Shown: positions 6,405-48,345 of the stretch, in pieces
Position numbering within the stretch: position 1 is the first letter of the stretch
How the letters are laid out: the number at the start of each line of letters is the position of its first letter
NCBI GenBank assembly: GCA_015143295.1
Contig: CM026556.1
Span: 16,306,547-16,370,546 of the forward strand
Direction: 5' to 3'
DNA: 64,000 bases
From: Tetracentron sinense
Lineage: Eukaryota; Streptophyta; Magnoliopsida; Trochodendrales; Trochodendraceae
Made by a program: the position numbers and the translations under genes
Notes under the pieces: generated by a model
What the model was told of the DNA's origin: nothing
Database searches by the model: none
What the model saw: the letters and a program-made list of their open reading frames with translations, nothing else

Positions 6405-6588
6405 ACCGAGCGATCGGTGTTAATGACCGATCGATCGGTTGCCTACCGATCGATCGGTTTCATAACCGAGCGATCGGTTAAAATTTCACTCTCTGGAAAA
6501 TTTCTCCATACAAAAATCTTGACCAGTCGATAGCCTCCGAGCGATCGGTTTTGGACCGATCGATCGCTCCATGGACCGAGCGATCGGT
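6405..6588 (-). promoter_or_regulatory. U3 palindrome module of LTR A (4 + spacer + 3)
   Basis: Seven copies of a 13-14 bp palindrome, mostly ACCGATCGATCGGT or ACCGAGCGATCGGT. Four are followed by a ~60-bp spacer (containing CTCTCTGGAAAA, CCATACAAA and CCAGTCGATAGCC) and then three more. The block lies about 60 bp upstream of the TATA box at 6334-6343, a position fitting an enhancer or upstream activating block. The same 4 + spacer + 3 layout occurs in the copia LTR at 47857-48042. Confidence 0.85.
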
Positions 6589-6803
6589 GGTCTGCAGGTC
6601 CAAACTGTTTTGGCCATAACTTTTGACTCGTTCATCCGATTTTGACGATTCAACTTGCGTTGGGTTCGTACTTCGAAAACGAACATTTCTGACGTTTCGG
6701 AATTTCCAATTTCTTCCTTATTTATTAATTGCATTACTTTAAAGGAAAAATGGCTACGAAGGGTCATGCATAAATGTGAAAAGGTCCGGGGCTCTACACC
6801 ATC

Positions 6804-7475
6804 AATGAATGATAAAGTTTCAAAACCGGTTGTGGCATTGACCATCATTTCTATGATGGGCAAAGGGAATTCATCTTTAGGGCAAGCTTTATTCAAATCT
6901 TGAAAGTCTATGCAAACCCGGATCTATCCGTTCTTCTTCTTCACAGGAACCACGTTGGCAAGCCTAGTAGGGTATTGAACCTCTCTTATAAACCCGACTT
7001 TGAGGAGTTTATCTACCTCAGCTTCAGTTTGAGCGATCAGTTCTGGGCGAGCTCGTCTTTATGCCTGCTTGATTGGTCTGACATCTTCTCGAGTTATGAG
7101 ATGATGAACTGTAATTTTTGGATCTAAGCCAGGCATCTCTGTGTAGTTCCAGGTAAAGACATCCTTTTACTCTTTTGGGAGACAAAGATGCTCATCCTTT
7201 TCTATTTGGGAGAGAGAGGCACTGATGAAGGTTGGCCTTAGGTCTTGTTATGAGTCAAGGTTAACTTCAAGAAGGTAATCAACAGTTGCTTGACCTCCTG
7301 CTTCAAATTCTGGAGGAGCCAGACAAAGTCCTGAAGAGGAGTCTTCATCTACCGTAATAGTATTTATGGTCCAGATCAGTTCCTCATTTGGCGAATGATA
7401 AGAATTTCCTGGTTCAAGTTTTCCCAAGTTAGAACCAACCTGCTTATAGGTAGCCAAAGTTCTGGGTGCTGGCAT
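6804..7475 (-). pseudogene. Element B RT, N-terminal part, truncated by element A
   Basis: The broken frame contains motifs preceding and entering a Tat-type RT: DYLLEVNLDS, TEMPGLDPKI, VDKLLKVGFIREV, IRVCIDFQDLNKACP and PKDEFPLPIIEMMVNATTGF. The catalytic DD box lay beyond the break and is not here. In-frame stops include a TAG just ahead of IRVCIDF, where a glutamine is usual, and another in the DVFTWNY region. The sequence ends at SFIDG where the LTR of A begins. It once copied RNA to DNA for B and is now inactive. Confidence 0.85.
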
Positions 7476-7490
7476 GATTTCATGCTTAAC

Positions 7491-8147
7491 CTACTCTTCT
7501 TCTTCAGTATTAAACCCCTGCTTCTCAAGCATTTTCTTGATCGCCGGATTAAACACAGGCTTCCTTTGATAAGGATTCATTCTTCTACCCCTTCTGTTGC
7601 TTCGGGGAGTGGCTTTGCCTGCTTGTCTTACGGAGTGAAAAACAATGGGCTTTTCCCCTGTTTTTATGGGCGGGACAATGACACTGGGAATGACTTCCGT
7701 TGTTGGCCATTTTTGCCATGCACTGAGGCCGACCTTAGCCAAGCTATCAATCATATTTTGATGCGCTGCCTCAACCCATGGGGATGCTTGTAGGGACTCT
7801 ACTTCTTCTGAAAGCCATTCTATGGAGACTTCTTCTGATGTGGATTCCTCCCTGGCCATGACCATATTTACGGTCTGATTGTGATTTTTCTCGAATACAA
7901 AGACTAGGGGATTATACCCAATTCTTGGTGTATTTGTATCTACATATTCACCAGTATCCAGGGCTTCATGTTGCTCCCATTTGAGCATGGCTTCATAAGC
8001 CGGTAGGGTAGTTCCTTCGACTTGCTCTCCTTCTTCAAGATCAAACCCTTGGTTTTTGAGGAGCCTGGTAGTCTTTTCACCAAAGCTTATCTTCTTCTGA
8101 TAAGGATTGGTGATCCTACCTTTTTCATTGGTCCATGAGGAGTTCAT
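7491..8147 (-). pseudogene. Element B spacer between protease and RT
   Basis: 218 codons without a recognised domain. It contains two imperfect copies of a module (NPYQKK...LLKNQGFDLEEGE and NPYQRK...MLEKQGFNTEEEE), so the spacer carries an internal duplication of ~120 residues. Such a long linker between protease and RT is usual in Tat/Ogre-like elements. Its function is unknown. Confidence 0.6.
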
Positions 8148-8186
8148 CCTATCATATGCACCTGGGGAATTGAAGAGTGTCGGTTT

Positions 8187-8950
8187 CTATCCTCTTTTCT
8201 TAACTGGGACAGTGAAATTGGAGATAGTTTCAACCATTGTACAGTCCATTCTCCTCAAAGGGACTATATGATCACCTTTCAGAGCTTGAAGGGGGTCAAT
8301 TTTTTTAACCTCATAAATCTGGGAAAGGTCGACTGACTTACCCTTCTCCAGATTCTGGGAAGATTCGACCAAAGATAAGGTTAGTTTTCCTTCTTTTCTT
8401 TGAGACTTTGGGGTGTATTTGAACACCCTTTTCGGAGCTACTGTTTGGGCAGGTTCATAATTGCTTTTTGAGCTACTCTCAACCTTTTCCCCTTTGGGCT
8501 TCTGTTGAAGGTTTCTTTGGGCATTTTTGATATAGAAACACGCATCTACGTAATATGCTTCTGCATCATTGAATAGATCATCATCAACATCGATCCTTAC
8601 TTGCCTATTCCCTTGAGGGTATTTGAGGTATTGATGATAGGTGGACGACACAATTAGATGGTTGTGCATCCATTGATGCCCCAATAAGGCGTTGTACGAC
8701 ATATCGACATTGATCACAAGAAACGTATAGTTTCAGCAATATCCCCAAATCTGGTTTTGAGGTTGACCATGCCCATGGGCTTCTGCTCATTTTGGTTAAA
8801 GCCTTGGATGATCAGGTTGCTTTCATGAAGCTGACCTATTTTTCTGCTAAGCTTGGATAGCATTCTTCTTGGAAGAATGTTAACGGCTGAACTCTCATCT
8901 ATCATCACTCTGGAGATACTAGTCTCATTAACTAAACCCGAGATGAACAA
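8187..8950 (-). pseudogene. Element B protease region, frameshifted
   Basis: Two overlapping frames (8714-8950 and 8187-8717) form one ancestral protein. The first has the retropepsin-like site MIDESSAVNILP, where the usual D[ST/G]GSA is altered. The second starts INVDMSYNALLGHQWMHN, the conserved second half of plant gypsy proteases (YNALLGRPWLH type). A one-base change near 8714-8720 moves the frame between them. It cleaved the Gag-Pol precursor and is now broken. Confidence 0.8.
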
Positions 8951-9037
8951 TGGTTAATTATGCTGGAGAGTCTCAGCTTGCATGTCTTCATCATCAAAGG
9001 TGATCGTAAAGAGGCATGAAGCTCCTGTTTGAGGAGG

Positions 9038-9906
9038 CTATGGCAGCTGACTTGTGACCTCTTCAGAAAAGTCCTCAAGATTAGAAATGGCATATATAAG
9101 GGACCTTCTTAATTTCGGAGACATCTTGAGAGCATCATAAATGCTCGGTAAAGAAGGAATTTTCTTTAGGTGAGCCAGAATATCATATTTGACCCTCTCA
9201 TTACCAGGAGCCATTTGAACTTGGGTTGGCTGGGCTCTGGTCTGATTTTCATGCTGGACTAGCACAAACCTCGGTTAAAGCTTTTTTCCTAACCGGAGGT
9301 TGAGTTGATAGACTTTGGCAATTGTCTGATCTATTGGTCCAGATGACTCTCCTTCCAAGAGTTGGATCATGCTCATAGAGCTGAAGTCCAACTTTATTTT
9401 CTTGCTTTCGAAAGATGACTGAATTTTTCTTATATGTTGCCTTGTTAGACTTCTAGGCTGAGCTAAGATTTGTTCAGATGCTTGTGATTTGTCAGTCGGC
9501 CCTGAGTTTACGACTACTTCTTCTGTTTAAGGGTCCTTATTCAAACTGAATACAGTAAGTGAATCTTGGTTCTCGAGCTGAGTTGAGATTTGCACGGGTC
9601 ATCGCATCTGACGATGGTTTGGGTTTGGAACCTCAGGTGTATTTAACCTTTCTTGAGGTGAATCAGATTGTACTTGTTCATCTTCTGCCTCGCTTTCTCC
9701 CCCAGATAAGAATCCTTAGAGAGATTTGAAAGTCCCGTAGGGGTTCGTCCTGGTCTAGATGGTCTCCCTTCTGGGAGTTCAATGTCTTCTGATTGATCTA
9801 GCCAATCTTGAAATACCCGTTGTCTTTTTGGACTATAGGCTACCACTGGTCTTAGCATATCCAACCATAAAGGGGCTTCATTCGGGACCGCGTCAATAAC
9901 ATCCAA
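9038..9906 (-). pseudogene. Element B gag-protease linker remnants
   Basis: Open pieces at 9643-9906 and 9038-9265. The latter has YDILAHLKKIPSLPSIYDA and MSPKLRRSLI, a conserved stretch found just before the protease in Tat-like polyproteins. Between 9266 and 9642 the reading frame is broken and I see no further domain. Confidence 0.6.
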
Positions 9907-10215
9907 CAGGAAAAGATGTTGGATTCGTCTCCTGAATCTATTGACTAAAGGCTATTATAGTCGTAGTCGGAGCAGAAGCCTAGCGGGACAAAATCCATTA
10001 ACATGATCACCGTCAATGGCTTTTTTTCCACAAGAGCATCTTGGGCAGGGCCATTTTTCTTGGCTTTCCTCACTCTTTTTCTTTTCGGCCACGGCTATGT
10101 GCTTCCCTTCTTTTCTTTAGGCTTGAGTTTGCCTTGTATCCTAAGCTTGCTTTTTAGCATAAGCATTTCGAGCTAACTACTTTTTCTTCTTGGCCCCCTT
10201 GCTTTCAAAGAGGGT
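9907..10215 (-). other. Element B gag-linker spacer, no domain seen
   Basis: Decayed polyprotein sequence rich in Lys codons on the minus strand; no recognisable domain or repeat. Confidence 0.4.
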
Positions 10216-11425
10216 CTAATCTTCTTCCTCTGACGGTTTGTCGTCAGGAATTTTTTCACTTGAAGATGCTTCATCTTTATCAACTGGTTCTGAAGCCACG
10301 ACCTCATTGAACGTAGCTACCTGTTGGAGATCACCAATGACAATTTCTTTATTGTCCAAGAGTAGCTGGATGATGTCTTTCAGTACAAAATAGTCACCTA
10401 TCTTGTGACTGATTATACGATGATACAAATAGTATTTGGGATCATTTTTCATCCCGATCTCTTGAGGTCTCCTACTTTTAGGAAGGGTGATCAATTCATT
10501 GGCTAGGAGATCTTCAAATAGATCTTTGACAATATCTCCAGAGAATGAATATGTATTATTCATTCTTTCTTCAATAGTGATCTTCTTTGGCGGAGGATCC
10601 CTTTTATCTTGCCATTGTGGTCTTCTAGCTCCACCCTGAACTATTTTAGCGCCAATCTTAATTGGTCCTTTGTCGTTGCTTGTTTGGCCAATTGATCTAC
10701 CAACACTTGGTGCTAGTTTTGCAGTCTTTTTGGCTTCAACTACTGCGGCTGTTGAGGATTCAAGGCGATCAGTGCCCCTGCCTCCCCTTCTCTTTCCTAT
10801 ATGGCTCTCCATATCATGTGTTTTTGTGCACAAATCTTCGAAACTCGTAAAGGTTTGAGCCATAGGGTTAGTTGAAAGGTCATGCCTGAAGTTATTGAGG
10901 CACATCCGAATGAGTTCTAATTAAGTGAACTTTTGAGGGCAGGAGAAGGCCAATGCTCTCCATCGAGCAATGAACTTTGTTACCATTTCACTGTCCCTCT
11001 GCCTAGTCTCAATCAATTTTGAAACACCTACTCTTCTCTGGGTGTTGTAAAATTACTTGCTGAACTCAGTCACCATTGTGCTCCAACCAGGGATTAAACC
11101 TTCGGGGAGGTTGGCATACTATGTGAAAGCAGCACCCTCTAAAGATTACACAAAGATTTGGAGGCAAAGAGCTCCAGTCTTGGATGTCAATCCGCATCTT
11201 GAGAAGAAGTAAGATAGATGTTGCCTCTAATCTCTAGTTCCATTGAACATCTAGAATGTTGGTTGAATGAAGCCTAGCGGGAATAGAACCGCGTCCATAG
11301 TAGCTGGATAGGGCTTTACGATCATACGAACATCCACTTCCTTCTCTTTGGCTTGTCGCATTTGATTGCGGATAGTCTCTTCAATTACAGCAAGAAGAAA
11401 TGGTTACACCCCTCCTATAAGGGCA
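10216..11425 (-). pseudogene. Element B Gag, C-terminal part
   Basis: The open part is 10216-10905 (229 codons); broken frame upstream to 11425 extends it. A retrotransposon gag core is recognisable by FYNTQRRVGVSKL, ETRQRDSEMVTKFI, RWRALAFSCPQKF and LIRMCLNNFRHDL. Downstream comes the Tat-type tail with DPKYYLYHRIISHKIGD and FVLKDIIQLLLDN, then an acidic end. Stops lie in the upstream part, one next to QKFT. Solo LTR S1 (11431-14720) splits the gene; its other half resumes at 14726. Confidence 0.85.
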
Positions 11426-12071
11426 GCTTGTGTAGCAACCCAGAATTTTAATATCATAAAATTTTGGATTATCGGTCCTTAATTGAGGTTAATTAGTTAT
11501 GTGTTTGATAAATTTGTGTAAAGTAGGTATTACTCGGAATTGGGTTGCACTACTACGAAATTAGTGTTTTTCTTCGATCTGCGCATATAGTGTGCCGGTC
11601 GGCTATCCAGACGTCCACCTATCTTTCCGATTCAGTTGCACATCAATTCGCGAAACCGCGAAGGTCCTGTGTGTGGAAACATCGAGAAAATCAGGGAATT
11701 CGTAGTGTATCGAATTTCGATTGGGGCTCTATATTTAGCGGCCTTTCTAATCGAAATCCATGCGGACTGTTCCACTACATGCTGGAAGGCCATGCGGACG
11801 ACGGTCTATCATTTCGGCAATTTATTATCTCATACGGCGAAACCCTAGTGTGTTTTGTATCCGAAATTGGAAAATTTATGGGTTTTGCAAATTCTTCCAG
11901 TCGCACTTTTTGGCAGTCAAAACTCATTGGATTTCCCCAAAATTTTTACAGCAGGTGTCAGACTACTCCAAGATCGATCACCTAAAGTTTTGTCAAAATC
12001 AAAAATCATATGGTATGGTTTCAGAATGACTTTCGGCGACATTACCGGAAATCGATCACAATTCGCAAGCC

Positions 12072-12126
12072 GCAACACGTGTCTCGGCTCAAGCCAACAC
12101 GTGTCTCGGCTCAAGCCAACACGTGG
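12072..12126 (+). promoter_or_regulatory. G-box repeats upstream of the S1 TATA box
   Basis: A ~24-bp direct repeat (CAACACGTGTCTCGGCTC and partial copies) carries CACGTG three times, about 50 bp upstream of TATAAATA at 12173. CACGTG is a known plant bZIP/bHLH binding core. The location matches the palindrome modules of the other LTRs. Confidence 0.6.
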
Positions 12127-12464: not shown

Positions 12465-13190
12465 TCAGACCCTTTCTGAGCTCTGATCATGCTCAAATTT
12501 GTACTCTAAATTTATCTTCGTAATCTGTAAATCATATCAAAATTTTACTGTAATCTAATGGTTGGATAGGATGATATGAATTTCTACAGGAAAACCTAGT
12601 CTGTTGTTTTTAAGGCTAATAGTACGATTTTCCTAATTATAGGAAACCTTTATGAGCTCTGATCATGCTCAAATTTTTACTCTAAATTTATCTTCCTAAT
12701 CTGTAAATTATATCAAAATTTCACTGCAATCTGATGGTTGGATTGGATGATATGAATTTCTAAAGGAAAACCTAATCTACTATTTTTATGGCTAACAGTA
12801 CGATTTTCCTAATTATAGGGAACCCTCTTAATCTCAGATCATGCTATAAATTTTACCACATATTTATATTCCTAATCTGTAAATCATATCAAAATTTCAC
12901 TACGATCTGATGGTTAGATAGGATGATATGAATTTCTAAAGGAAAACCTAGTTTGTTGTTTTTAAGGCTAATAGTACGGTTTTGATCACTACAGGGAACC
13001 TTTATTATATCAGATCATGCTCAGATTTTTACCATATTGCGACCTTCCTACTTTGTCAATCATATCAAAATTGCAATGAGATCTGATGGTTGGATTTGAC
13101 AATATGAATTTCTAAAATAAAACCTAGTCTGTTGTTTTAAGAACAACAGTATGGTTTTGATAATTACAGAGCCCCTTCCTGATCTCAGAT
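12465..13190 (+). repeat. ~180-bp tandem repeat in S1
   Basis: About four diverged units, each with TCAGATCATGCT or TCTGATCATGCT, AATCATATCAAAATT and GATGGTTGGATAGGATGATA, and ending near CTAGTCTGTTGTTTT. It lies downstream of the TATA box, so it would be in the transcribed leader. Confidence 0.8.
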
Positions 13191-16382: not shown

Positions 16383-17172
16383 CAAGCTTAGGCCTATCCA
16401 TGGATGGTCTTGAACTTCTGTTCATGGACAGTGCTGGTATTCTGTCCGTGGATAGAACTGGTATTCTGTCCATGGACAGAGCTGATGGTCCATCCATGGA
16501 TGGTCTTGAATTTCTGTCTTTGGACAGTGGTGGTATTCTGTCTGTGGACAGAGTTGGAATTCTGTCAGTGGACAGAGCTACTCTTCTGTCTGTGGACGGT
16601 CTTGATTTTCCATCTGTGGACGGTCTTGATGATCTGTCCATGGATAGTTTTGATCTTCTATCCATGGACAGAGTTGACATTCTGTCCGTGGACAGAGCTT
16701 GTCTTCTGCCATGGATAGTCTTGATTTTTCGTCCATGGACGTTCTTGATTTTTAGTCCGTGGAAGGTCTTGAACTTCTCTCCGTGGACAATGCTGGTATT
16801 CTGTCCGTGGACGGGGCTAGAATTCTGTCCTTGGATGGAGCTGTTATTCTATCTGTGGACGGTCTTGAACTTCTCTCCATGGACAGTGCTGGAATTTTAT
16901 CCGTGGACAGAGCTGCTCTTCTATCCGTGGATGGTCTTGATTTTCCATCCGTGGACAGTCTTGATGATCTGTCTGTGGACAGTCTTGATCTTCTGTCTGT
17001 GGACAGAGTTAACATTCTGTCCGTGGATAGAGCTTGTCTTCCGTCCATGAAAGGTCTTGATTTTTCGTCGATGGACGATCTTGAACTTCTGTCCGTGGAC
17101 AGTGCTGCACTTCTGTCCGTGGACATTCTTGAGGTTCTGTCTGTGGATAGTCTTCTATTCCCCTCCATGGGA
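16383..17172 (-). repeat. 24-bp palindromic minisatellite (~33 units)
   Basis: The unit contains the palindrome CTGTCCGTGGACAG plus ~10 bases ending GGTATT or GATTTT. Variants such as CCATCCATGGATGG keep both arms complementary. It lies inside element B next to the 30-bp array. Confidence 0.9.
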
Positions 17173-18389: not shown

Positions 18390-21300
18390 TGCTAGACATG
18401 ATGCTCAGAAAAGTCATTTAGATTGTTAGATTCTAATTAATTTGATTAATAAAGACTTCTTCTTAATCTATTGTATATTCATTATTGGTAATTGACCATG
18501 ATCATGAGATGATTTATACGATGTGAGATATCGATAAAGGTCCATAGGATATATTGTAGGAAAGTTAGGTGATTGGATTATCACAGACAGATATAACTTT
18601 CCGGTTCCTTATACCTTATATAGTCACAGCTATGGTTGAAGCTGGGCATTTCACTTATATGGCTGCCAGAATGTTAAGATGTTCTAATAGTTGAGATGTA
18701 GTTCTATCTTGAACTATTGTAGTGGAGACTACACATCAGCATATGGGTGCTTAAATGTACACTGACTGATTGCATTCAATGAGAGACCTCTTGCATAAAC
18801 ATACTATCAGATAGTTGCTCTCTCATTCACATTGAACGGTTTCGATGATTCTTAGATCTGATGAGTTCATCTATGACTGGGCAGTGATCTAACTGTTTTG
18901 ATTCCACCAACGTATTTTCTAACTTAGGGAATACAATACAGTGATAGATGGATAGTCAGAAAGTTGTTCGAGTCATGATGAATTTCAAACAAGAAATCCA
19001 TGCTAATTAATTTGAGAGATTATCCAAGTTCCAAGTAAGACAATTGATTAAGTTCAAATCCTGCATAGGTGATTTTGAAAACAAAAGAAGTTTTGAAATA
19101 TAATTTTATTAAAAGGTATTATATTTATAAAAGGATTTTTTCAAAATGCTTTTCATGAAAAATTGTTTCTCATGGCTTAATCACAAGTCTTGGAAACCCG
19201 AATGATTTGCAATGGGCTATGGGTTAGATAGTATGTCAATCTCGAAGGGCCATTAGGGATAATGTATTTGGAAGGATAAATCGAATTTAAAAGTTCATAT
19301 GACGGGATCCGTAATGATTAATGTTCAAACACTGGGATTCAATTGCAACATGGATATCTCACGTCACTTGCAATTCCAATGTAATTCCTGTTTAGGGTCA
19401 ATGGGATAACATTGGGTAAGCCAAGGTAAGAATGTCCCAGAGCAATCTGTGGAGATGCTCACATAAGAAATACAAGCTCAATAATTGAATAAATATTAAT
19501 CAATTATTTAAGTGATTAAAAGTTAATTGTCGTGACCCAAAACCCACCCTAGGAGTTAGAGTGAATCTTGGACGACTAATCATGACTTGCATGACTTGCT
19601 TGACAAACCAACTTACAAAACCCACAGAGCATATACAATAGAGGACAATAATAGCAGGAACATGTAACAAGACACAGCGGAAGTCTAAAAACCTCTACGT
19701 ATATACATACATGATCCAAGTTTATACAAAAAGGAAACCAAAAGAAAGTGCGGACATGCCTGCCAAAATACATGGATATATCTCTCTCAACTCACCCACA
19801 GCTACATCACTCAGAATCTACTACAATCTAATAGTAACCCTCGACCGAAGGTTCCTTTAAAGGTTCCTCAAGGTACTCCTCCTCCACCCATGGGCCAGGA
19901 GCACAGACATCAAAAGGAGCAGCCGCTCCGCTATCACCTGCCGACATAAGAAGTACGGCTAAGCATGGAATACTTAGCGGGTACCAAATACTAACCAATA
20001 GTCATAGCATAAAAATGGCAATACATAAATCAGGAGCAATTCATATATGTTAAACGGAAACAATTCATATCATACAAGGAAGTAAAGCAATTTATAATCA
20101 TGCTTGCATTTCCTAAAAACCGATAAAACTCTTGAAAACACCGTGCACTTGGCTTGACTTAAGTACCATTTTCGTGCTTGAAAACTCGTCTTGTCTATCT
20201 TGCTTGATTCTTTTAGATCGTGTCATGTCATGCATGCTTGCTTGTGATCATGTAACTTGTAAGGTACACTTGTAAGATGCACTTGTGAGATGCGCTTGTG
20301 AGATGCCTTGAGAGGGAAGGGAGACCCTTCTTTATGCAATGCACTTGAGAGGGAAGGGAGACCCTTCTTCATGATATGTATGTACTTGTGAGGGAAGGGA
20401 GGCCCTTCTTTATGCTATGCACTTGTGAGTGAGGGGAGACCCCTCATGGAATGTTTGTTCTTATTTTCTTGTGAAAAGCGAGCTAAAACATATCGTAGGA
20501 TATGTCCCACCTCTAAACCTCGTTCTTGAAAACCTCAGTAAATCATGTCATGCATGCCGTGCTCGTGGAATCGTGTGCATTTGAATTTAAACATGACATT
20601 TGGGGGATTTCACAATGTATAGCATATAGCAATTTTAAACCAATAAACATTCATAATATTTTTAGGGAAAACAAGGTCTCACAATATCATAAGTTCTAAC
20701 AAGTTACATAAGTATTTAAGCATGCATTTTCTTAATTTATAATTCATTTCTTTCATCTTGGCATTTCATCAAACATGGGGTGTGTTCATTATGTATTAAA
20801 CCTATATCATGCTTTTCTAGGTGGAATGATGTTCACTTCACACATGTATGTTCATTATGGATACAATGCCCTCCCCATTTCATTCATCACAACCATACAT
20901 ACGGCATCCCATCGCCAATATCCATCTCCATTCACACCATTTACACATTACAACTCATATTGTAGTTATAGATGGGGAAAACAAAGAATAGAAAAGAAAA
21001 GAGAAAGTTATGACTAAGAGGGTAGCACAAGGTACCGACCTTGACAAATGAGGGAAGGAACTCTCCTCCAAAACGTGCGTGAGTTGCTGCCCTAGCTTGG
21101 GGAAGATGCTCCTCACGAGCTTGAATCGGAATCTTGAAGCAATCCAAGCTTAATGTGATTGTGGGTCTTGAAAACCCCTTTGATTTCTCCCCAAAAGCAA
21201 ACCCTAGGTTTAGAAACCCTTCTCCTCTTTCTCTAACACTCAAAATACTCTAAGTGTTGTGAGTGAACCCTCAAATGATCGGGCAAAGCCTTTAAGGCAT

Positions 21301-22848
21301 GAGTGAATCGCCCAAAAGATGAAAACACCCTTAATGAAAATTCTGCAAAAATGCGAAGACCGAGCGATCGGTGGTTATGACCGATTGATCGGTTGCCTAC
21401 CGAGCGATCGGTCAATTGACCGAGCTCTCGACCAAAAATTAACTCTCTGGAAAATTTTCTCATACAAATTTTTTGACCAGTCGATAGCCTCCGATCGATC
21501 GGTTTTGGACCGATCGATCGCTCCATGGACCGAGCGATCGGTGCTCTACAGGTCCAAATTGTTTTGGCCATATCTTTTGACTCGCTTGTCGGATTTTGAC
21601 GATTCAACTTGCGTTGGGTTCGTACTTCGAAAAGGAACATTTTTAATGTTTCGGAATTTCCAATTTCTTCTTATTTATTAATTATACTACTTTAAAGGTA
21701 AATTGGCTACGAAAGTGCCATGCATAAAACATGAAAAAGTCTGGGGCTCTACATTAATCATTAATTAAATAGATTAAAAGTTAATCTATTGTTTAAATTA
21801 ATTGCTAATTTAAATTAAGGGATTATTTTAGTGATTATTTAATTAACATAATTAAAGGGGAAATGGGTTTGACCCATATCCATAAACCCATTTAATATGG
21901 ACCTTTAATATGGGCCCAAGTTCATGGGTTTAAACCCTAGGGTGGGGCACCCACTTTAGAAATCCTAATTGAATTAGGATTTGGTTACTTGAATAATTAT
22001 TGAATAATAATTCTATTTATTATGGAATTAAATTCCAATAGTTGGAATACAAGAAGGATTAAGATAAAGTTGTAATTGGATTACAACTAGGAGTTTTAAC
22101 TCCTCAAAGCTCCCGCCCCTTTAAGCTCATGCCCACCCCTTGTGGTTGTGGTTTCCTAGTTTGACTAGGATTCCTCTCTTATTTTGCTTGTTGACTAATC
22201 TCATTTATTTGAGGAATCCTCAATTGATAAGGATTCTTTAACTAGAAGGATTGCTATAACTAAAGTAGTTATAGTTAATCTAGGAGTTTATTAATAATTA
22301 GAGTTATTATTAATTAATAACTCCTAAAGGGATATGTTGTAGTTGGAGTAGGATTTGGATTTGATCCAATCTACATATACACCAACACCAAAAACGTGTG
22401 AGAGGTATTTATAATTCTCCAGAATTTTTTCACTCCCTCTCATCCTCCTCTCCAAACTGTGAGCCCCTAAGGAGCATCCCTAGAGATTTTCATGAGCTAC
22501 AAGGTGCATCCAAGTTGGGTTATTCAATTCTAGGGTTTTGTACCTTAGGGTTTTTGGTGATAGAAAGTCTACACCATTACTCCATCTTCTTCCTCTTGGT
22601 TCAATAATTCCAAAGAGAGATTCTAAAGCTTCGTGGGGATAGCAAAGAACAAGAATCAAGCTTCGAGTATTTCTTGGAGAAATCTTTACAAAGAGTTCTG
22701 ACGGTTCGAGTGGATTAAGCTTCACCGGTGAACATCATTCACCGAGGTGATATGACTAAAACTTTTAGATAGAATTTGATGTTTTCTATGGTGTTAAGAT
22801 CTAGGGGATCCTATTTTCTGCATAAAGTTTTATCCAAATCCCCCTTCA
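18390..22848 (+). mobile_element. S2: solo LTR, probably Ty1/copia, split by LTR2
   Basis: Starts TGCTAGACATG and ends AAATCCCCCTTCA; the TSD GTTCC is at 18385-18389 and 22849-22853. Without LTR2 it is about 2.2 kb. No coding domain, primer site or second LTR was found. Plus orientation is suggested by ATATACACC and TTTATAATTC TATA-like motifs near 22375-22415 and a pyrimidine-rich leader, but is not certain. Family assignment is weak. Confidence 0.7.
19528..21753 (-). mobile_element. LTR2: Tekay-like solo LTR (2226 bp)
   Basis: Starts TGTCGTGACCC (plus) and ends GGGGCTCTACA; TSD TTAAT at 19523-19527 and 21754-21758. Same family as the LTR of A, with the palindrome module at 21359-21542, tandem hairpins near 20270-20450 and the stem-loop at 19953-19984 carrying compensatory arm changes. 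The TATA position is degenerate (AGCCTTTAAGGC near 21290). It is inserted in S2. Confidence 0.92.
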
Positions 22849-29492: not shown

Positions 29493-31972
29493 TGTCGCGA
29501 CCCAAAACCCACCCTAGGAGTTAGAGTGAACTTTGGACGACTAATCATGACTTGCTTGACAACCAACCTGCAAAACCCACAGAGCATATACAATAGAGGA
29601 CATCATAGCGGAAACATAACCATAAAACACAGCGGAAGTCTACCAAACCTCTATGTATAATACAATTGCAAATCCAAGTTTATACAAAAGTAACCCAAGA
29701 AAGTGCGGACAGGCCCGCCAAAATACATGGATATAATCTCTCGTCTCACCCACAGCTAATTCACTCAGAATCTACAACCACCTAATGGTAACCCTCTACT
29801 GGAGGTTCCTCCAAAGGTTCCTCGACGTACTCCTCCTCCACCCATGGACCAGGAGCACAAACATCAAATGGAGCAGCAGCTCCCTCAGAACCTGCCGACA
29901 TGAGAAGTACGGCTGAGCATGGAATACTCAGCGGGTACTAAATACTAACCAACAATTATAGCATAAAAATGGCAACACATAATTCAGGAGCAATTCATAT
30001 ATGTTAGACGGAAACAATTCATATCATACAAGGAAGTAAAACAATTTATAATCATGCTTGTATTTCGTAGAAAGCCGATAAAACCTCTTGAAAACATCGT
30101 GCACTTGACTTGACTTGAAATATCTTTTCGTACTTGAAAGCTTGTCTTGTCTATCTTGCTTGATTCTTGTATGTCGTGTCATGTCATGCATGTCATGCGT
30201 GCTTGCTTGTAATCATGTAACTTGTGAGATATCCTTGTGAGATGTACTTGTGAGATGCCTTGAGAGGGAAGGGAGACCCTTCTTTATGCAATGAACTTGA
30301 GAGGGAAGGGAGACCCTTCTTCATGATATGCATGTACTTGCGAGGGAAGGGAGGCCCTTCTTCATGATATGCACTTGTGAGTGAGGGAGACCCCTCGTGG
30401 AATGTTGGTTCTTGTCTTCTTGTGAAAAGCGAGGTAAAACATTTCGTAGGATATGTCCCACCTCTAACCATGTTCTTGAAAACCTTGATAAATCATGTCA
30501 TGCATGCCGTGCTCGTGGGAAACGTGTACATACTTGCATTTAAATTTAAACATGACATTTGAGAAATTTCACGACACATATAACATCAATGATTGAGCAA
30601 TGTAACGTTCACATCATTTAGGGAAAGCAAGAAAAACACACTATCATAGGCCCTAGCAATATCCATAATTTATTAGGCATGCATTTCCCAATTTCCAACT
30701 CACTGTATTCACCTTGACATTTCATCAAACATGGTGTGTTCATTATTCATCATTCATTTAAACCTAAATCATGCTTTTCTAGGTGGGTTATGCTCACATC
30801 ACACTTGTATGTTCATTATTAGTATAATGCCCTTTCCCATTCATTCATCACATCATCTACACGGCATCCATTCGCCCATTCCATCTCCATTCATCTCATA
30901 TCACAAGTGTAAATGAAAGAAAATCAAAAGGAAAAAGAGGGAAAGGGGGAACTATAACTAGGAGGGTAGTAAGAAGTACCGACCTTGAAGAGATGAGGAA
31001 GAAATCCCTCTTCCAAATGACTGTGAGTTGCTGCCCTAGCTTGGAACACGAGCTTCGCACGAGCTTGAGCCGAGATCTTGAAGAAAACCGGACTGGAAGT
31101 GATCTAGGGTCTCAAAACCCTTTGATTTCTCTCCAAAATGGAAACCCTAGGTTGGAATCGCCTTCTCCCCTTTCTCCTATTCTCTCAAACTCTCTAAGTG
31201 TCGAATGATGCCCTAAAGGCTCGGGTTAAACTCTTAAGGTAAAAGTGAACTGACCAGAAGACCATAATACCCTTACTGAAATTTCTACAAGAGCACGAGT
31301 GCTGAACACGTTGTGTTGTGAACAGTGCTGAACGCGTTGTGCTGTGAACAGTGCTGAACACGTTGTGCTGTGAACAGTGCCAACTCGTTGTGCTGTGAAT
31401 AATGCCAACTCGTTGTGCTGTGAATAGTGCCAACTCGTTGTGCTGTGAATAGTGCAAACTCGTTGTGCTGTGAATAGTGCCAACTCGTTGTGCTGTGAAT
31501 AAAACTAAACACGTTGTCCGTTGTGAAGGGTGCCGACCCCGTTGTCACGTTGTGTCGTGCATAGTGCTGAGCTCGTAGTCCGTTGTCTTATGTACAACGT
31601 GCCCGTTGTGCTGTACAACGTACCCGTTGTGAGCTGTACAACGTACCCGTTGTGAGATGTACAACGGATGCACAACGTATACGTTAAGAGTACGTTGTCT
31701 GTGCTACGTTATCAGAGTACGACGTCAGAGCACGTCCTTAGTGCCTTCCGAGCTACGTTTTGCCTACCAGTTCAGACTGTTTTGGCCATATCTTTTGACC
31801 CGTTCGTCCGATTCTGACGATTCAACTTGCGTTGGGCTCGTACTTCGAAAAGGAACATTTCTGACATTTCGAAATCTCTAATTTCTTCCTTATTTATTTA
31901 TTATACCTCTTTAAAGGCAAAATGACAACGAAAGTGTCATGCATTAACTGTGAAAAGGTCAGGGGCTCTACA
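29493..31972 (-). mobile_element. LTR6: Tekay-like solo LTR (2480 bp)
   Basis: Starts TGTCGCGACCC and ends GGGGCTCTACA; TSD GTTTG at 29488-29492 and 31973-31977. It is closely similar to LTR A outside the U3 array. In place of the ACCGATCGATCGGT palindromes it has a 25-26 bp tandem array (about 31295-31690). Confidence 0.93.
31295..31690 (-). repeat. U3 tandem array of LTR6 with CGTTGT/ACAACG arms
   Basis: About ten units of 25-26 bp with CGTTGTGCTGTGAATAGTGC, then copies of ACAACGTACCCGTTGT, an inverted repeat. It occupies the position of the palindrome module in LTR A. Confidence 0.85.
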
Positions 31973-33291: not shown

Positions 33292-33400
33292 ATCTCGCTC
33301 GAGCTGGCTTCCATCTTGCTCGAGCGGGTTACTCCCTAGCCTCAAAAACTCGGTTTTGGTCAATCTCGCTCTAGCGGGTTTGGATCTCGCTCGAGCGAGT
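33292..33400 (-). promoter_or_regulatory. U3 palindromes of LTR5
   Basis: Four sites based on CTCGCTCGAGCGAG (imperfect copies) lie about 40 bp upstream of the TATA box, the same place as the modules of other LTRs. Confidence 0.7.
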
Positions 33401-34025: not shown

Positions 34026-35242
34026 TGAAATTCCTTATTCCAATGCACTCTTAGACCTAGAGGGGGGGGTGAATAGGTCTACTATAATTTTCTCTACCAA
34101 TTTTAATTTTTATCAATCACACATAGCCAAACTCACTTGGACACACAGGATTTTTACGTGGAAAACCCATCCGGGAAAAACCACGGGACCTAGTCTAGCA
34201 CAGAATCCACTATGAGAAGATTTAAACAATATAAGACTCGAATCTTACCCAACTGGACACAACACAACGTTCCTCGGTATCGATTCCTCAGCTTGCAAAC
34301 CACGAACACAGCACGTTCGATCTCCGCAACAGCAGCTCCGGTTCCTCACTGGCCAATCTTACTCAAAGTAATCAACCACGATCTCCGAAGACCGATCTCC
34401 ATCCTTGACGGCTTTAGCACAGGCTAACCACCACTCACAGTAGAGCAACAATGGATTTTAGGGTTTGTGGAAGCCCTAGGGTGATCTCTTGATGTTTAAG
34501 GATCATCTAATGCAAAGTATAGAAAATATGCTTTAGAACCATTCAAAACCTAGAGGTCAATTATTGGAGATGAAGATCAATGAACTAAAGAGTTTTCATA
34601 AACTCAAAGCAAGCACAAAGTGTTCTAAAAAGTCTCCAATTGATGTCTCTCATGGATTGGAAGAAGTCCCTTATATAGGAAAGGTCCAAGGGATTAGAAG
34701 TTGCTAAAAAATGATTTTGGAAAGTTTTTTCATATCAGGGTCGACCCTGGGTCGACCTATTGTAACAAAATCAAGATTCAGCCGAAAATCTATATCAGGG
34801 TCAACCCATGGGGCACATTCGGTCGACCGGATGGTGCCTTTCGGTCGACCGGTTTGCCCTCAGGGTCGACCATCACAATTTTCACTCTCTGCCAAAAAAC
34901 ATGGTAGAAATTGGGGGCTCTTCAAGGTTGACCCAAAACGGTCAGGGTCGACCCTAGGGTGCATTATTTTGGTTTTTCAACTTTTTAATCATTGAATGCA
35001 TTCCCCTATCACCCCTTCTCCAATTTGACTTATTTTTAATGATAAATGAGTATTTTCATGAGGTATCATAGGGCCAACTAGGTCTCTTTCTTAATCCCAA
35101 CTTTTGAGCCACTGTAAGTGATGAGACTTCAAGATCCTTCACGGCTTCTTCTTCACTTTGTCTTCGAACCAGACGAGACCTACTATGACCTAAATACAAC
35201 ATTTTGAGCTCGAAATTTTGCCAACAACATTTTGACTTTACA
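34026..35242 (-). repeat. 3' LTR of element F
   Basis: TGAAATTCC...GACTTTACA. U3 palindromes at 34738-34958 (GGGTCGACCC, CGGTCGACCGG), TATA CCTATATAAG (minus, 34670-34679). The PPT follows at 35243-35254 (AAAGGGGGAGAT on the minus strand). Confidence 0.92.
34738..34958 (-). promoter_or_regulatory. U3 palindrome module of F
   Basis: Several copies of GGGTCGACCC or CGGTCGACCGG in two groups around a spacer containing TTTTCACTCTCTG, like the spacer of LTR A and G. About 60 bp upstream of the TATA box. The 5' LTR copy is at 45318-45549 and has diverged (for example GTCAACCC). Confidence 0.78.
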
Positions 35243-36003: not shown

Positions 36004-37322
36004 TCAAGAATGAAAATCGCGAAGCTCCTGGCGAGATGCCTGCACTTTGTCGGAAAGTGCATCAATCCGACGATTAGTCGCCGAAAAACTGTCCTGAGTA
36101 GCAGCAGCATGAGAATCTAGGCGGGCATAAAGATCATTAGTAAAATGTGACTGAGCAGCCGACATATCAGCAAGCATGACAACCATTGTCTTGAAGGACC
36201 AGGGCCCTGACGGAGCTCGAGCATGGCTGGGAGTTGGACCGGCATCCGGGGCCGAAGGAGCGATGTCATCGTCAATGTCCTCATGCTCTGGCATCGCAGC
36301 ATGGGACAGACTACTAACCAAGGTGCGAGCACAGATGGGTCATAAGGAAGGCTTAATAGCCTCAGAGGAACGAGCCCGAACACCCTCAGCAAACATGAGA
36401 TTGGTGATGAGGACACCAAAAGGAAGAGCAGCTCACTTTTGATGCACAGCGATAGCCTGAAGGATTAGGTCGATAATGTGAGCACCAGTATCAATAGTGT
36501 CTCCAGTCATGATACTATACAGGAACCGAGCCCTATCAACACTCAGAGTAGTAGAGTGCACCTTGGGATGAATGTTGGAACACATAATAAGATGAAGGAG
36601 ACGACCCAAATATGAAAGACTGGAGTGAGGTAAAGAAGGATGAGTCCATTTTTGTGAGGGATCATCACAAAGATTGCTGGCGACCATGTCCAAATCATGC
36701 TTATCCTCATCGGTAGGATATTGGTAAGGGTAATAGGCGCTCAGAATCCGAGGGCCACTAATGAAAAAGGCAATGACATCCGGATTAATGAGAAATTTCT
36801 TACCCCTAACCTGAGTGTTGAAGGTAAAATTTCAAGGATTAACAAAATAAATGTTCGCATAAAATTCCCGAACAAGGTCAAGACTGGCATAACCGGTCAA
36901 ATTTAAAAGACTAGAACATTGGCGAGAGGCAATAATTTCCTCGAAACCAGGATGGGTGAAATCCAAAATGACAGTAGCTCGTTCAATTGTAACAGCCCGA
37001 TTTTTAAGCAAAGAATTGAACAGCTTTTCATTCCCTGTGGTGCGAAACCGTACAATTTCAAGCTCAGGAGTGGGGACTTGAGATTTACCATTGGATTTGG
37101 CCGAGGGCTATGAACTGGAAGCACCCATGGCTTTCTTATGAGAAGATGAGGGTGGAGAAACCCTAGAATGGACCGCATGGCCCACATGGATGTCATGGCC
37201 AGCATCATATGAGGCATCTGCAGACTCAGGGACATCATCTTTATCCGAGAGATGACGAGGCGGCGCTTAGGGCATCCCACCATAAAAATAGAGGCAATGA
37301 GAAGAAGATATTGAACAGCCAT
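36004..37322 (-). pseudogene. Element F ORF3 (env-like position), broken
   Basis: Homologous to the intact ORF3 of G (49015-50238). It starts with a hydrophobic leader then PKRR, and has LVREFYANI, RGKKFLINPDVIAFF, YYPYQYPTDEDK, NIHPKVHS, DRARFLYSIMTGDTID and AHIIDLILQ, ending in a predicted coiled coil (SFSATNRRIDALSDKVQ). At least one frameshift near 37240 and several stops break it. It lies between pol and the 3' LTR, where Sireviruses carry an env-like ORF. The fold resembles the plant transposon protein domain PF20167; I could not test this. Confidence 0.7.
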
Positions 37323-38485
37323 GGATCCAAATGCAAGAAAAGGAATAGAAGGTAAGGGGTTACCTTGAGGATGGGAGTGCGAAGAACAAACCCTAAAACT
37401 TGACCAAGGAAGGATGGAGGATCGTACGGCACTGTGGAAGGAGCAGACAGCTGAGCAAGGGAACTTGGAGTGAAGGAAGTAGCTCACTGGAACAGGGATG
37501 AGCCAAAATATCCTTGCAGTACAGAGTCTTTGAAGAACTCATGAAGCCTATAAACTTTCAAAATGAAGGCAGTGAAATCGTGAACCATGAATCCAAGAGT
37601 AAAGCCTGATAGAACACATGTGAGGGCTGAATGCATACGAATCCCAGTTGGATTCTTGCAGAGGAAAACTCCAAAAGGGAAGGAATCTCCGTAAAGCAGC
37701 AAGGGGGGTTTCGAAACCCCATTTCTAGGTGTTCGGTCGACCGAACAATCACTCAAGGTCGACCTATTGTGACTGAGGTGAATCCGTGTAAGAGATGAGG
37801 GAGACCAATTTGGATGCATGTGAGGGGGCAGCTTTTGGAGAAGAATCTCTGAAAAATCTGAAAGAGAATATCAAATTCCTCCAAAACAGAAATTAGAACA
37901 AGCTAGTGACCCAAGGATTGCAACACTTGATGGACAAGGTAAGATCTTTTCATGAAAACCTCCAAAATCAACCAACAACACGCAATTTGCTAGAAAGGAT
38001 TTTCAAAAATTTATTATTTTGCAAATCAAATTTCTTCATGATAATTTCAATAAGAAAATCCATGATGTGCACATTTTGCAGGTAACCAATAATACCATGT
38101 CCAAGAATATGTAGAATAAATTGATGAGTAGATGAGGATATTTCCATCGACACTATGCACAAGGGATGGCAAGACATAGGCACATAATGTAATGTGCAGT
38201 TAGTAATAGGCTATACCAACAATGTGCAGTGGAGGTGAAATTCTGACTATACACCTTTAGAGGTAAGCACCCTTAGATAGATAAGGACATTAGTGCAGAT
38301 CAGGAACACCAAGCTTCAAAAATAACTGAGAGATGCATATAGGGTAATCAAAAAAATGAAGAATTTTATGTGCTATTTTTACCCCTTTTTATAAGTTGCT
38401 CTCACATTGTTGATGGAATTTTTGTTTGGTGAAGCTATTCGTGATCAATTTTTTTTTTTTTTTTTTGAATTTTGAGATGCAAAAG
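37323..38485 (-). other. F region between ORF3 and the conserved post-pol segment
   Basis: No gene recognised. Contains GGTCGACC-type palindromes near 37735-37765 similar to the LTR ones, and a poly-T run near 38440-38465. Confidence 0.5.
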
Positions 38486-42326: not shown

Positions 42327-42339
42327 GACCTTCTTCTTG

Positions 42340-44551: not shown

Positions 44552-44591
44552 AAGATAACACTTAAGGGATTTAACCTTATGAGTGAACCTG

Positions 44592-45832
44592 CTCTGATAC
44601 CAATTGAAATTCCTTATTCCAATGCACTCTTAGACCTAGAGGGGGGGTGAATAGGGCTACTATAATTTCTCTACCAATTTTAATTTTAATCAATCACACA
44701 CAACCAAACTCACTTGAACACACAGGATTTTTACATGGAAAACCCTTTCGGGAAAAACCAAGGGACCTAGTCTAGCACAGAATCCACTATGAGAAGATTT
44801 AAACAATACAAGACTCGAATCTTACCCAACCGAACACGACACAACGTTCCTCGGTATCGATTCCTCAGCTTGCAAACCACGAACACAGCACGTTCGATCT
44901 CTGCAACAACAGCTCCGGTTCCTCACTGGCCAATCTTACTCAAAGTAATCAACCACGGCCTCCGAAGACCGATCTCCATCCTTGACGACTTTAGCACAGG
45001 CTAACCACCATTCACAATAGAGCAACAGTGGATTTTAGGGTTTGTGGAAGCCCTAGGGTGATCTCTTGATGTTTAAGGATCATCTAATGCAAAGTATAGA
45101 AAATATGCTTTAGAACCATGCAAAACCTAGAGGTCAATTATTGGAGATGAAGATCAATGAACCAAAGAGTTTTCATAAACTCAAAGCAAGCACAAAGTGC
45201 TCTAACAAGTCTCCAATTGATGTCCCTCACGGATTGGGAGAAGTCTCCTATATATAGGAAAGGTCCAAGGGATTAAAAGATGCTTAAAAATGATTTTGGA
45301 AAGTTTTTTTCATATCAGGGTCGACCTTGGGGGTCCCTGGTTAGACCCATTATAACAAAATCAAGATTCAGCCGAAAATCCATATCAGGGTCGACCCATG
45401 GGGCACATTCGGTTAACCGGATGGTGCCTTTCGGTCGACCGGTTGGCCCTCAGGGTCAACCCTCACAATTTTCACTCTCTGCCAAAAAACATGGTACAAA
45501 TTGGGGGCTCTTCAGGGTCGACCCAAAACGGTCAAGGTCGACCCTGGGGTGCATTATTTTGGTTTTTCAATTTTTCAACCATTGAATGCATTCCCCTATC
45601 ACCCCTTCTCCAATTTGACTTACTTTTAATGATGAATGATTATTTTCATGAGGTATCATAGGGTCAACTAGGTCTCTTTCTTAATCCCAACTTTTGAGCC
45701 ACTATGAGTGATGAGACTTCAAGATCCTTCACGGCCTCTTCTTCACTTTGTCTTCAAACCAGATGAGACCTACTATGACCTAAATACAACATTTTGGGCT
45801 CGGAATTTTGCCAACAACATTTTGACTTTACA
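44592..45832 (-). repeat. 5' LTR of element F with adjoining primer site
   Basis: LTR 44605-45832, PBS TGGTATCAGAGC (minus) at about 44591-44602, two bases from the LTR. TATA near 45248-45258. The palindrome module at 45318-45549 is partly decayed compared with the 3' LTR. Confidence 0.9.
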
Positions 45833-47124
45833 CTTTTCATTTCTCGGTCTTGCTTGTGAACATCATTCATGCATGTCTGTCTTGTCTTGTATTTTCTGTC
45901 TTGACTTGTTCTTGACTTGTATACTTATGAGCCAGAGGCTAGCACCTGCACATTCTTGGGCTACCAACCTTCTTGACATTTCATTCTCTTATGAGCCAGA
46001 GGCTAGCACCCTTCACTTGGGCTACCAACCTCCTTGTCATGTACTTGTTTCCTTTCACTTGTGAGCCAGAGGCTATAGTACCCTTTCCGTGGGCTACCAA
46101 CCTCCTTGACATGTTCTTGTTTTATTCACTTGTGAGCTAGAGGCTAGCACCCTTCATTCGGGCTACCATCCACCTTGAAATGTACTTGTTTTCATGTTTG
46201 ATTTATCATACAAAGCTAGTCGTGGAAAACCCGGTTCATGCATGCATGCGTGCTTGTGTGCTTGTCAATAGTGACAACCATGATGACATGTTTGAATGGG
46301 AGGATCACATGAATACATCATTTTGATTTCTAGTATAATCATATGACAAAGTAGGTAACATCTAGCGCATTTGAGCAATTGATCATTCATAAGAAGATTT
46401 ACACAATTCCTGTTTCCATTTTCTTCATTTAATTCCTTTACTCCTAGTTTAGACATTTTGTTGAACACATAGCATGCAACATTTCCTTAGTAGTTCATCT
46501 TACTCTTTTTAGTGCATATTTTCCATCAAATCATCAAGGTAAGTTTCTTATTTGTAGAGTGCCCTTCCACCATTTTTCCATTTCATTCATCACACAACAT
46601 CCATACGGCATCCAATCGCCTCAACTCCTCATCCATCCACATATCACCATGTTCTTTATTATCTTGTTTACATTTTATAGAAATAGCCCTTTCAAAAGAG
46701 AGGGAAAGCATGGAATCAAGAATCATCAACAAAAATGGAAAACCTAGGTTATTGCTAATGGGAGTTAGTAGGGTGTACTAACCTTTAAACTTGGAGGAGA
46801 ACTTGAGGGAAGATGAGATTAGATCCTGTGAGTAGAAAATCCTTGCTTGAGATGGGTTTTGAGCAAAATCCTAGCTCTTCCTTTCTCTCCTTTCTCTAAA
46901 TCTCCCAATATAAGCCTTGAGGGTTTATGAAACCCTCACCCACGGATTTGGGGTTTATATAGAAAGTGGGGTGGTTGAATGACCATCCTACCCTTAAAAT
47001 CTCGGCTAAAACAGACCAAATAGGCAAAGTACTCGAGGAGCGGTCAACCGGTCATAGGAGCGGTCGATCATTAAGCTAGCGGTCGATCGGTTGACTGGAG
47101 CGGTCGATCGGTCCAAAACCCCCT
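45833..47124 (-). mobile_element. LTR4 part 3 of 4, with hairpin repeats, TATA and half of the U3 module
   Basis: Tandem units of ~65 bp (45921-46182) with GAGCCAGAGGCTAGCACC and GGGCTACCAACCTCC. TATA box (TATATAAACC, minus, about 46952-46962). The first four palindromes of the module (AGCGGTCGATCGGT type) are at 47037-47112. Element G is inserted in the module spacer. Confidence 0.85.
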
Positions 47125-48345
47125 TGAAATTTATCCAGATCAATGATCTCTAAGACCTAGAGGGGGGGTGAATAGGTCTATCTAATAATTTCTAACCAAT
47201 TTTAATTTTTCAATTAATATGTTTACAAATCAATGAACAAATCACTCAGACAATCCACACAAATCAAACACAGAAGATTTTTACGTGGAAAACCCTAACG
47301 GGAAAAAAACCACGGGACCTCGTCTAGCAACAAACTTCACTATGAAAATATTTCAAGTACAAGACAAGACCTTACCAAAACAAAAATGACGTTCCTAGGT
47401 ATAGACTCTTACTCTTGATTTCCACGAACCAGCAGGTTCGATCTCCGCCGTAGCAGCTTCGGTTCCACACCGACCGAATCTTCTCAAGCTACTTCAAAAC
47501 CACGATCACACACGATCGATCTCCTTCCACGAAGGCTCCGGATCAAACACCGGACACACACACAAGGTGTAGGGTTGTGAATCAATTTAGTAAGTTTCAA
47601 ACCCTAGAGGGATCTCATATAGATCTGAGATCACACAAGGCAAGATCAAAGGTTTAGATCTATACTTGCATTCTTTAGGATAAAAAAAAGAGGAGGGATC
47701 AACAAAGATCTAAAAGAACAAGAGGAAAAACCCTAGAGGAGTTTCTCAGACCTCTACTCTTTCAAAAATAAACAAAGATACGAATTAGGTCTCCAAAAAG
47801 TTGTTTATATAGGGTTTAAAAAAAAATCCAGAAAAATAAAAATTCTTTTTACGGGGACCGATCGAGCGGTGCTCATTACCGATCGCTCGGTCCAAAACGG
47901 ATGGCTCGGTGCTCATAACCGATCGCTCGGTTAAAAATCACCTCTCTGGAAAAATACCCCATACAAATTTTTTGTCCAGTCGATAGCCACCGATCGCTCG
48001 GTAGGCCACCGATCGATCGGTCTCAACACCGAGCGATCGGTTGAGACAGAATTTTTTCCAAACCATTTTTCTTTTCATGTTTATTTGATTCAACTAAGAT
48101 CAAACAACTTTGTTAGGTTTAAAACTATCCTACTAGGTATGTTTAGAGTTATCTAAGTCAAATCCAACCTAGGTAGGGGTCTCTAAGTCCATTACCTTTC
48201 TAGATCCAGAGTAGGAGCTGTTTCTTCACTTTCTTCAATCTTGTTTATGCTTTAGCTCTTCTCTTCTGACAAGTTGAACACGACTCAACTCACATGACCT
48301 ATCTAATGATCACGGAAATTTCCAACACCTACTTAGGGATTTACA
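47125..48345 (-). repeat. 3' LTR of element G
   Basis: TGAAATTTATCC...GATTTACA; TATA (CCTATATAAAC on minus) at about 47804-47814; palindrome module at 47857-48042. A polypurine tract (AAAGGGGGAGAT on minus) abuts the LTR at 48346-48357, a second one lies near 48679. Confidence 0.93.
47857..48042 (-). promoter_or_regulatory. U3 palindrome module of copia G, same layout as gypsy LTR A
   Basis: Four palindromes (ACCGATCGAGCGGT, ACCGATCGCTCGGT and relatives), a ~60-bp spacer with CTCTCTGGAAAA, CCATACAAA and CCAGTCGATAGCC, then three palindromes. It matches 6405-6588 site for site in order and orientation. About 40-45 bp upstream of the TATA box. Confidence 0.85.

Follow-up and report, generated by a model that had tools for sequence, protein, structure and literature searches.

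Within a 64,000-nt stretch of the Tetracentron sinense genome (CM026556.1:16,306,547-16,370,546, hereafter the window), a nest of long terminal repeat (LTR) retrotransposons, one sequence in one base-pair register is present in the LTRs of both Ty3/gypsy elements, probably of chromovirus type, and a Sirevirus-type Ty1/copia element. Judging from sequence comparison, we think it probable that this block of about 185 bp, which we call the module, is a single homologous, promoter-proximal cis-regulatory cassette that passed from one superfamily to the other by recombination, at least once, and then spread. Our confidence is strong in the observation and in the homology, moderate in the function, and weak in the direction of transfer. 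The classification of LTR retrotransposons is based on their proteins, and each lineage is usually assumed to retain its own promoters; if this reading is true, a block common in sequence and spacing to two superfamilies, in a genome with tens of thousands of the palindromes, would mean that expression control and vulnerability to silencing can move between lineages.

Architecture of the module

The module consists of seven palindromes of about 14 bp arranged around a 57-bp spacer. All of the module-bearing elements in the window are on the minus strand, and in the direction of transcription the module therefore reads as three palindromes, the spacer (GGCTATCGACTGG...TTTGTATGG...TTTTCCAGAGAG...) and four palindromes. 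An earlier note on this DNA had described the same composite, which is present, but with the four palindromes placed before the spacer relative to transcription. The gypsy LTRs are designated G1 to G7 and the two copia elements A and B. The modules in the window are the following.

6405-6588, minus strand: module in G1, a 5' LTR, upstream of gag/pol
21359-21542, minus strand: module in G2, a solo LTR
55220-55404, minus strand: module in G4, a solo LTR
58432-58616, minus strand: module in G5, a solo LTR
47857-48042, minus strand: module in the 3' LTR of copia B; TATATAAA starts about 45 bp downstream, at 47811
62642-62753, minus strand: module in the 5' LTR of copia B, shortened by a deletion of about 73 bp; TATATAAA starts at 62597
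63058-63170, minus strand: upstream half of the diverged module in G6, with ACCGGTCGACCGCT-type palindromes and spacer
47037-47124, minus strand: downstream half of the module in G6, with four palindromes spaced by 21, 19 and 20 bp

The earlier note had listed the first six of these, and all six are there, the second copia module having lost about 73 bp. Its two copia entries (47857-48042 and 62642-62752) are, however, the 3' and 5' LTR modules of one nested element and make one copia case, so that a single copia element, beside four gypsy LTRs, stands behind the six copies. The list was also incomplete, as it missed the seventh, diverged module in G6 (63170-63058, 47124-47037).

Distances between palindrome centres in G5 are 20, 19, 71, 21, 19 and 21 bp, and the six centres detected in the copia B 3' LTR, at 20, 19, 71, 40 and 21 bp, all fall on the G5 grid; the fifth palindrome there is too degenerate to call, and 21 + 19 accounts for the interval of 40. 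The alignment of G5 with the copia B 3' LTR is ungapped across the module, with G1 and G2 one base shorter. With up to two mismatches, ACCGA[TG]CG[ACT]TCGGT matches the plus strand of the window 44 times; ten first-order Markov sequences averaged 0.1 matches. In the five LTRs examined, the observed/expected CpG ratio of the module is 1.66-1.92, compared with 0.51-0.64 for the rest of the LTR. Canonical TATA boxes lie about 45 bp past the module in both copia B LTRs and about 63 bp past it in G1; the earlier note had put the TATA box 40-60 bp downstream.

Homology between the copia and gypsy modules

The spacer of copia B is identical to those of G1, G2, G4 and G5 at 46, 49, 43 and 42 of 57 positions, respectively. 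As a null, each comparison was given 5000 dinucleotide shuffles, each scored at the best of 11 offsets; the shuffle maximum was 30-32 of 57, and none of the shuffles reached the observed values. Chance-level identity of the spacer, which the earlier note had named as a way in which it could be wrong, is thus ruled out. Over the whole module, identity within the window is 85-97% between gypsy copies and 74-77% between copia and each gypsy copy.

By BLAST, this similarity is confined to the module. When the two copia LTRs were compared by BLAST with four gypsy LTRs (plus strand, E up to 0.1), the sole matches were a region of about 190 bp, corresponding to the module, and pieces of it; the longest matches had 75.9-79.5% identity, and similarity ended at the module edges. 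Under the same settings no match was obtained between the copia LTRs and G3. Flanks of 15, 30 and 60 bp scored on average within one standard deviation (sd) of mononucleotide shuffles (51 non-independent pairs), with the upstream flanks near the shuffle mean.

Occurrence in the genome

At least 30,033 exact copies of the palindrome ACCGATCGATCGGT are present in this genome of 1.16 Gb (1,161,278,568 bp in 1479 contigs), compared with three of the reversed control, which disposes of the idea, also raised by the earlier note against itself, that the module is a simple repeat. For a sample, places with ACCGATCGATCGGT were listed on contig C1 and grouped by hand, and the first 29 clusters along the contig were all read. 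The module is present at more than 100 bits in 27 of the 29, several of them without one or more palindromes. On the basis of their flanks, 14 of these 27 modules belong to a gypsy family that we call X, six to Ga (G1/G2-like), four to Gb (G4/G5-like), and three are copia-B-like. Three pairs (L007/L009, L011/L013 and L019/L021) each belong, by position, to a single element as its two LTRs, so the 27 modules represent 24 elements. The copia module thus recurs on C1 in two other copia-B-like elements, L019/L021 and L035. The three X loci inspected have a TATAAATA TATA box, which in L024 is about 63 bp past the module (hand count), like that of G1.

One of the remaining two clusters, L020, is a palindrome site inside copia B (see below). 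The other, L025 (1501-1600), has no match to the reference LTRs; its three CCGATCGATCGG-type palindromes make up a GC-rich cluster surrounded by AT-rich DNA, and it matches just half of the module profile, at 20.8 bits. Outside this genome, the spacer pattern had no matches in viral_contigs and genome_contigs, which are collections of viral and prokaryote DNA.

Class assignment of the carriers

Copia B holds pieces of RVT_2, the copia-type reverse transcriptase (E 2e-50 in the open reading frame (ORF) at 52639-53166, and 6.7e-15 in the ORF at 51637-52638). It also carries the Sirevirus hallmarks given in PMC2829016, namely the polypurine tract (PPT) octamer with its attachment (att) site, the CA/ATTGG junction and the poly-C signal. 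The PPT octamer and AT/TG att site are found as AGGGGGAG AT/TGTAAATCCC at 48355 and AGGGGGAGAT/TG, the junction between the 5' LTR and the primer binding site (PBS) is TTTCA/ATTGGTATCAGAGC, of the CA/ATTGG type, with the PBS at 61906, and the poly-C integrase signal near the LTR 3' ends is represented by C runs of 10 (from 61955) and 7 (from 47168). Repeated motifs are present both as the LTR modules and as palindromes upstream of the 3' ORF. That ORF (49015-50256, 413 aa) has a match to Transposase_32 (PF20167) and to no named ENV, and is in the place of the Sirevirus ENV-like ORF. By these hallmarks, copia B is a Sirevirus-type Ty1/copia element.

The internal site of copia B (50404-50461, minus strand), upstream of the Transposase_32 ORF, has two palindromes (50427-50461) 21 bp apart, then about 16 bp, then TATAAAA. 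At the corresponding place in the sample (L020 and L038, which are one genomic site) the arrangement is GAAAATTTTCCAGACC-palindrome-CTTTCGTGA, with the flanks given as GAAAATTTTCCAGA and CTTTCGTGA. By eye, these flanks appear to resemble the end of the gypsy spacer and the downstream flank CTTTCGTGA of X.

On the gypsy side, the pol gene beside G1 in the window, L036 (X) and L037 (Ga) all have the domain order PR-RT-RH-INT, and pol of L036 and L037 contains a strong Tf2-type SH3 domain (one X and one Ga element examined). The C-terminal Chromo match is 20.9 bits in X and 24.1 bits in Ga, just under the curated Pfam cut-off of 25.1. A U5 att site of type A (GGG at -8 to -10) fits the G4 and G5 ends GGGGCGTGACA, and G1-G3 have T at -8. 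The module is not restricted to Sireviruses, since 24 of the 27 sampled modules are in gypsy LTRs.

Other cassettes in the same slot

Comparisons among the gypsy LTRs indicate that the module and the LTR body can vary separately. G1, G2 and G3 are alike in LTR body (79-84%, with G3 at 82-84% to G1/G2) and in a 210-bp stretch upstream of the slot (83-89%). Within the slot itself, G1 matches G2 at 87.5%, whereas G3 is 45-48% identical to them.

31290-31748, minus strand: slot of G3, without the module, occupied by ACAACG/CGTTGT repeats, partly in 25-bp units

A sampled LTR, L015, has a downstream body 87% like that of G3 and does have the module (193.8 bits), which makes it more likely that G3 lost or exchanged its module. 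The acquisition of promoters by transposons becomes testable in such cases, in which the same body is joined to different cassettes (G1, G2 and L015 versus G3). Conversely, G4 and G5 compared with G1-G3 are about 49-50% identical in LTR body, 85-88% in the module (with G1 and G2) and about 80% in the upstream part.

Two diverged gypsy LTRs differ in the palindromes that occupy this slot, with ACCGGTCGACCGCT and a recognisable spacer in G6 and CTCGCTCGAGCGAG in G7. In the degenerate G7 LTR (33300-33400, 33248), the CTCGCTCGAGCGAG-type palindromes are followed by TATATATA. Copia A also has an LTR array, which resembles the module in plan.

34780-34960, minus strand: array in the 3' LTR of copia A, GGTCGACC-type palindromes as two, 62 bp, then four, with a CAGAGAGTGAAA box

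One or two further palindromes are found downstream of this 2+4 plan. The CAGAGAGTGAAA (CAGAGAG) box is 24 bp before the next palindrome centre, the same distance as in G1 (hand count). We considered the possibility that this array is the same module and rejected it, as the spacer match is weak: 1-3 of 400 shuffles reach the score against G1 or G5, and 131 and 13 of 400 reach it against the copia B 3' LTR. An internal ORF of copia A is likewise preceded by palindromes, TTCGGTCGACCGAA and GGGTTTCGAAACCC (37705-37747, 36903-37538), in parallel to the internal site of copia B.

Module tree and direction of the probable transfer

Of the 27 sampled modules, 26 (all except L028, which was under the 130-bit limit) entered a tree together with five from the window, 31 in total; the deleted copia 5' module and G6 were left out. 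Mean module identity is 74.9-76.2% between copia and gypsy, by group, and 83.7-85.2% between gypsy groups. All copia modules fall together on one branch (100/100), next to those of X, and the split between copia+X and Ga+Gb has values of 95/92. On this evidence the copia module looks like the product of one old event. Copia is beside G1 in an eight-module tree and inside X under another model for the same 31 rows, each time with weak support. Ga and Gb as module clades are rejected (p 0.009 and 0.005), a test whose underlying body labels are mosaic; the body of L034 is nearest Gb, yet a 279-bp stretch of it is 75% like L023, which has a Ga body. As to direction, the standing of Sireviruses as known carriers of palindromic motifs favours transfer from Sirevirus to gypsy, while the greater variety of module-bearing gypsy LTRs favours the reverse.

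Explanations for the shared module

The TATA distance of 45-65 bp in copia B, G1 and X, the two-turn spacing and the CpG density suggest a promoter-proximal activator array. The palindromes, with centres 19-21 bp (about two helical turns) apart, may be recognised, all on the same helical face, by a dimeric DNA-binding protein of the host, the spacer may bind a second factor, and palindromes and spacer together would drive the TATA promoter. From the CCG-N6-CGG shape one might guess at LOB-domain or AP2-type factors. Transfer could have occurred by reverse transcriptase template switching between co-expressed RNAs or by DNA recombination between nested copies, which we hold to be equally possible, and the cassette would afterwards have spread with its elements. 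Copia B is nested in the module of G6, so both kinds of element meet at this site and recombination at the DNA level would be allowed. Insertions are described in PMC6911290 as weakly preferring palindromes, and LTRs as not commonly targeted by nested elements.

Several observations weigh against this reading. G2, G4 and G5 have no clear TATA box, just weak TA-rich matches at that place, and the previous claim about the TATA box does not extend to them. The whole module was seen in only one copia family (in the window and in three of the 27 sampled modules, two elements). Identity between copia and gypsy modules is just 71-80% over the 31 modules, which makes the event an old one. The downstream flanks score up to 0.96 sd above shuffles, at 60 bp (51 non-independent pairs), so a faint downstream similarity is possible and the edge may be softer than BLAST indicates. 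In the tree, neither monophyly of X (p 0.50) nor a grouping of copia with Ga (p 0.13) is rejected, and no direction emerges. Of three LTR pairs, two suggest that CpG is preserved and the third, copia A, is contrary (pooled p = 0.13); the pooled p of 0.011 for CpG protection in the two favourable pairs comes from a pooling chosen after seeing them.

Of the other explanations, we would give most room to one proposed for maize Sireviruses, that the palindromes are mainly hairpin or small-RNA templates for silencing rather than promoter parts, but we still consider it unlikely here. Folded as RNA, the modules of G5 and the copia 3' LTR far exceed shuffles in stability (z -7.0 and -6.0), and palindrome regions of maize Sireviruses are called small-RNA hotspots in PMC5311732; any palindrome array folds well, however, and hairpins would need neither the helical register nor the spacer nor the pairing with a TATA box. 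A little less probable is a third party, such as a host promoter or another mobile element, from which copia and gypsy captured the module independently. L025, one of the 29 clusters, does combine three related palindromes with no match to a reference LTR, but it shows only half of the profile, while 27 of the 29 are LTR modules and one more lies inside copia B.

Convergence, in which one set of host factors requires the same sites in both superfamilies, seems to us very improbable. Palindromic CGG-CCG motifs do recur in unrelated Sireviruses (PMC2829016, Table 3), and copia A and G6 both have GGTCGACC-type palindromes, yet the 57-bp spacer is ungapped and identical at up to 49 positions, the 71-bp gap is exact, and selection on binding sites would not be expected to fix a linker of that length. 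The earlier note's preference for exchange over convergence is supported by this exact register, the spacer identity above chance, the BLAST edges and the different cassette of G3. There is next to no plausibility left in a nesting artefact, in which the copia module is an inserted piece of gypsy LTR, or in an assembly error. Nesting is real at this locus, as copia B sits inside a gypsy module and itself harbours two gypsy solo LTRs, but the module is at the same position in both copia LTRs, with copia sequence and no gypsy LTR sequence on either side, and it recurs in L019/L021 and L035. We therefore rejected both, including the gypsy insertion into copia LTRs that the earlier note had offered as a possible undoing of its claim.

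Returning to a homologous cassette that crossed superfamilies, a wider view is possible, which we put forward tentatively and think somewhat less likely than not to be correct in full. Retrotransposon promoters in this genome may be interchangeable cassettes: the module would have crossed between Ty1/copia and Ty3/gypsy and been installed in several unlike LTR bodies, with a reduced form before an internal copia ORF and a different cassette in the G3 slot. Both superfamilies would then answer to the same host factor, and capturing such cassettes might have helped them to take over the genome.

Relation to known systems

In LTR swapping and inter-element recombination, regulatory parts of LTRs are exchanged between elements, in cases within one superfamily. 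The exchange of regulatory parts is alike here, but the partners are Ty1/copia and Ty3/gypsy. A palindrome-rich cis-region of maize Sirevirus LTRs was reportedly treated by Bousios and colleagues in 2016. Among the matches listed from the open-licence literature, mostly titles and the starts of abstracts, we found no report of a promoter block shared by copia and gypsy. What was known are palindromic promoter arrays in Sireviruses and variable CpG islands in the LTRs of Del chromoviruses; what appears to be new is one block in both superfamilies.

The repeated motif arrays of Sireviruses (Bousios et al. 2010, PMC2829016) are a close parallel. They have a palindromic CGG-CCG core, are rich in CpG, lie ahead of the TATA box at 200-400 bp into the LTR, and recur in front of the ENV ORF; one of them, CGGTCGACCG of Vitis, falls within the copia A palindromes. 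They are reported, however, as Sirevirus-specific, and no description of a shared spacer or fixed module was found there, whereas here a module that includes a spacer is also in Ty3/gypsy LTRs. The palindrome-rich LTR cis-region of maize, as conveyed by PMC5311732, is similar but appears to concern Sireviruses only. The 5' CpG islands of Del chromovirus LTRs (Cruz et al. 2014, PMC4029996) are alike in that many of the LTRs exceed 2 kb and in that a block close to the promoter, variable from group to group, is rich in CpG; they differ in that the string "palindrom" occurs 0 times in the main text of that paper, and no mention of sharing with copia was found there.

Elements and nesting in the window

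The elements that carry the features described above are as follows.

4380-6798, minus strand: gypsy G1, 5' LTR, next to a PBS-like TGGTATCAAAGC, then gag 2925-4088 and pol 2-2680 (cut at the window edge)
19528-21753, minus strand: gypsy G2, solo LTR, target site duplication (TSD) ATTAA
29493-31972, minus strand: gypsy G3, solo LTR, TSD CAAAC
53146-55616, minus strand: gypsy G4, solo LTR, TSD GAAGC, nested in copia B
56420-58828, minus strand: gypsy G5, solo LTR, TSD GATGC, nested in copia B
63416-63058, resuming at 47124, minus strand: gypsy G6, diverged LTR split by the copia B insertion, TSD AGGGG
47125-63057, minus strand: copia B, Sirevirus-type, 3' LTR 47125-48345, 5' LTR 61909-63057
34026-35242 (3') and 44605-45832, minus strand: LTRs of copia A, with palindromes that differ from those of copia B

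The insertion point of copia B is in the spacer of the diverged G6 module, and the Kimura two-parameter distance between the two copia B LTRs is 0.021. Tandem arrays at 12471-13138 and 16394-17154 (176-bp and 24-bp units) have no obvious tie to the LTRs. Arrays of 68-bp units are present in the LTR bodies of G4 (53800-54398) and G5 (57074-57611), and a related array of 69-72-bp units is found at 45979-46191.

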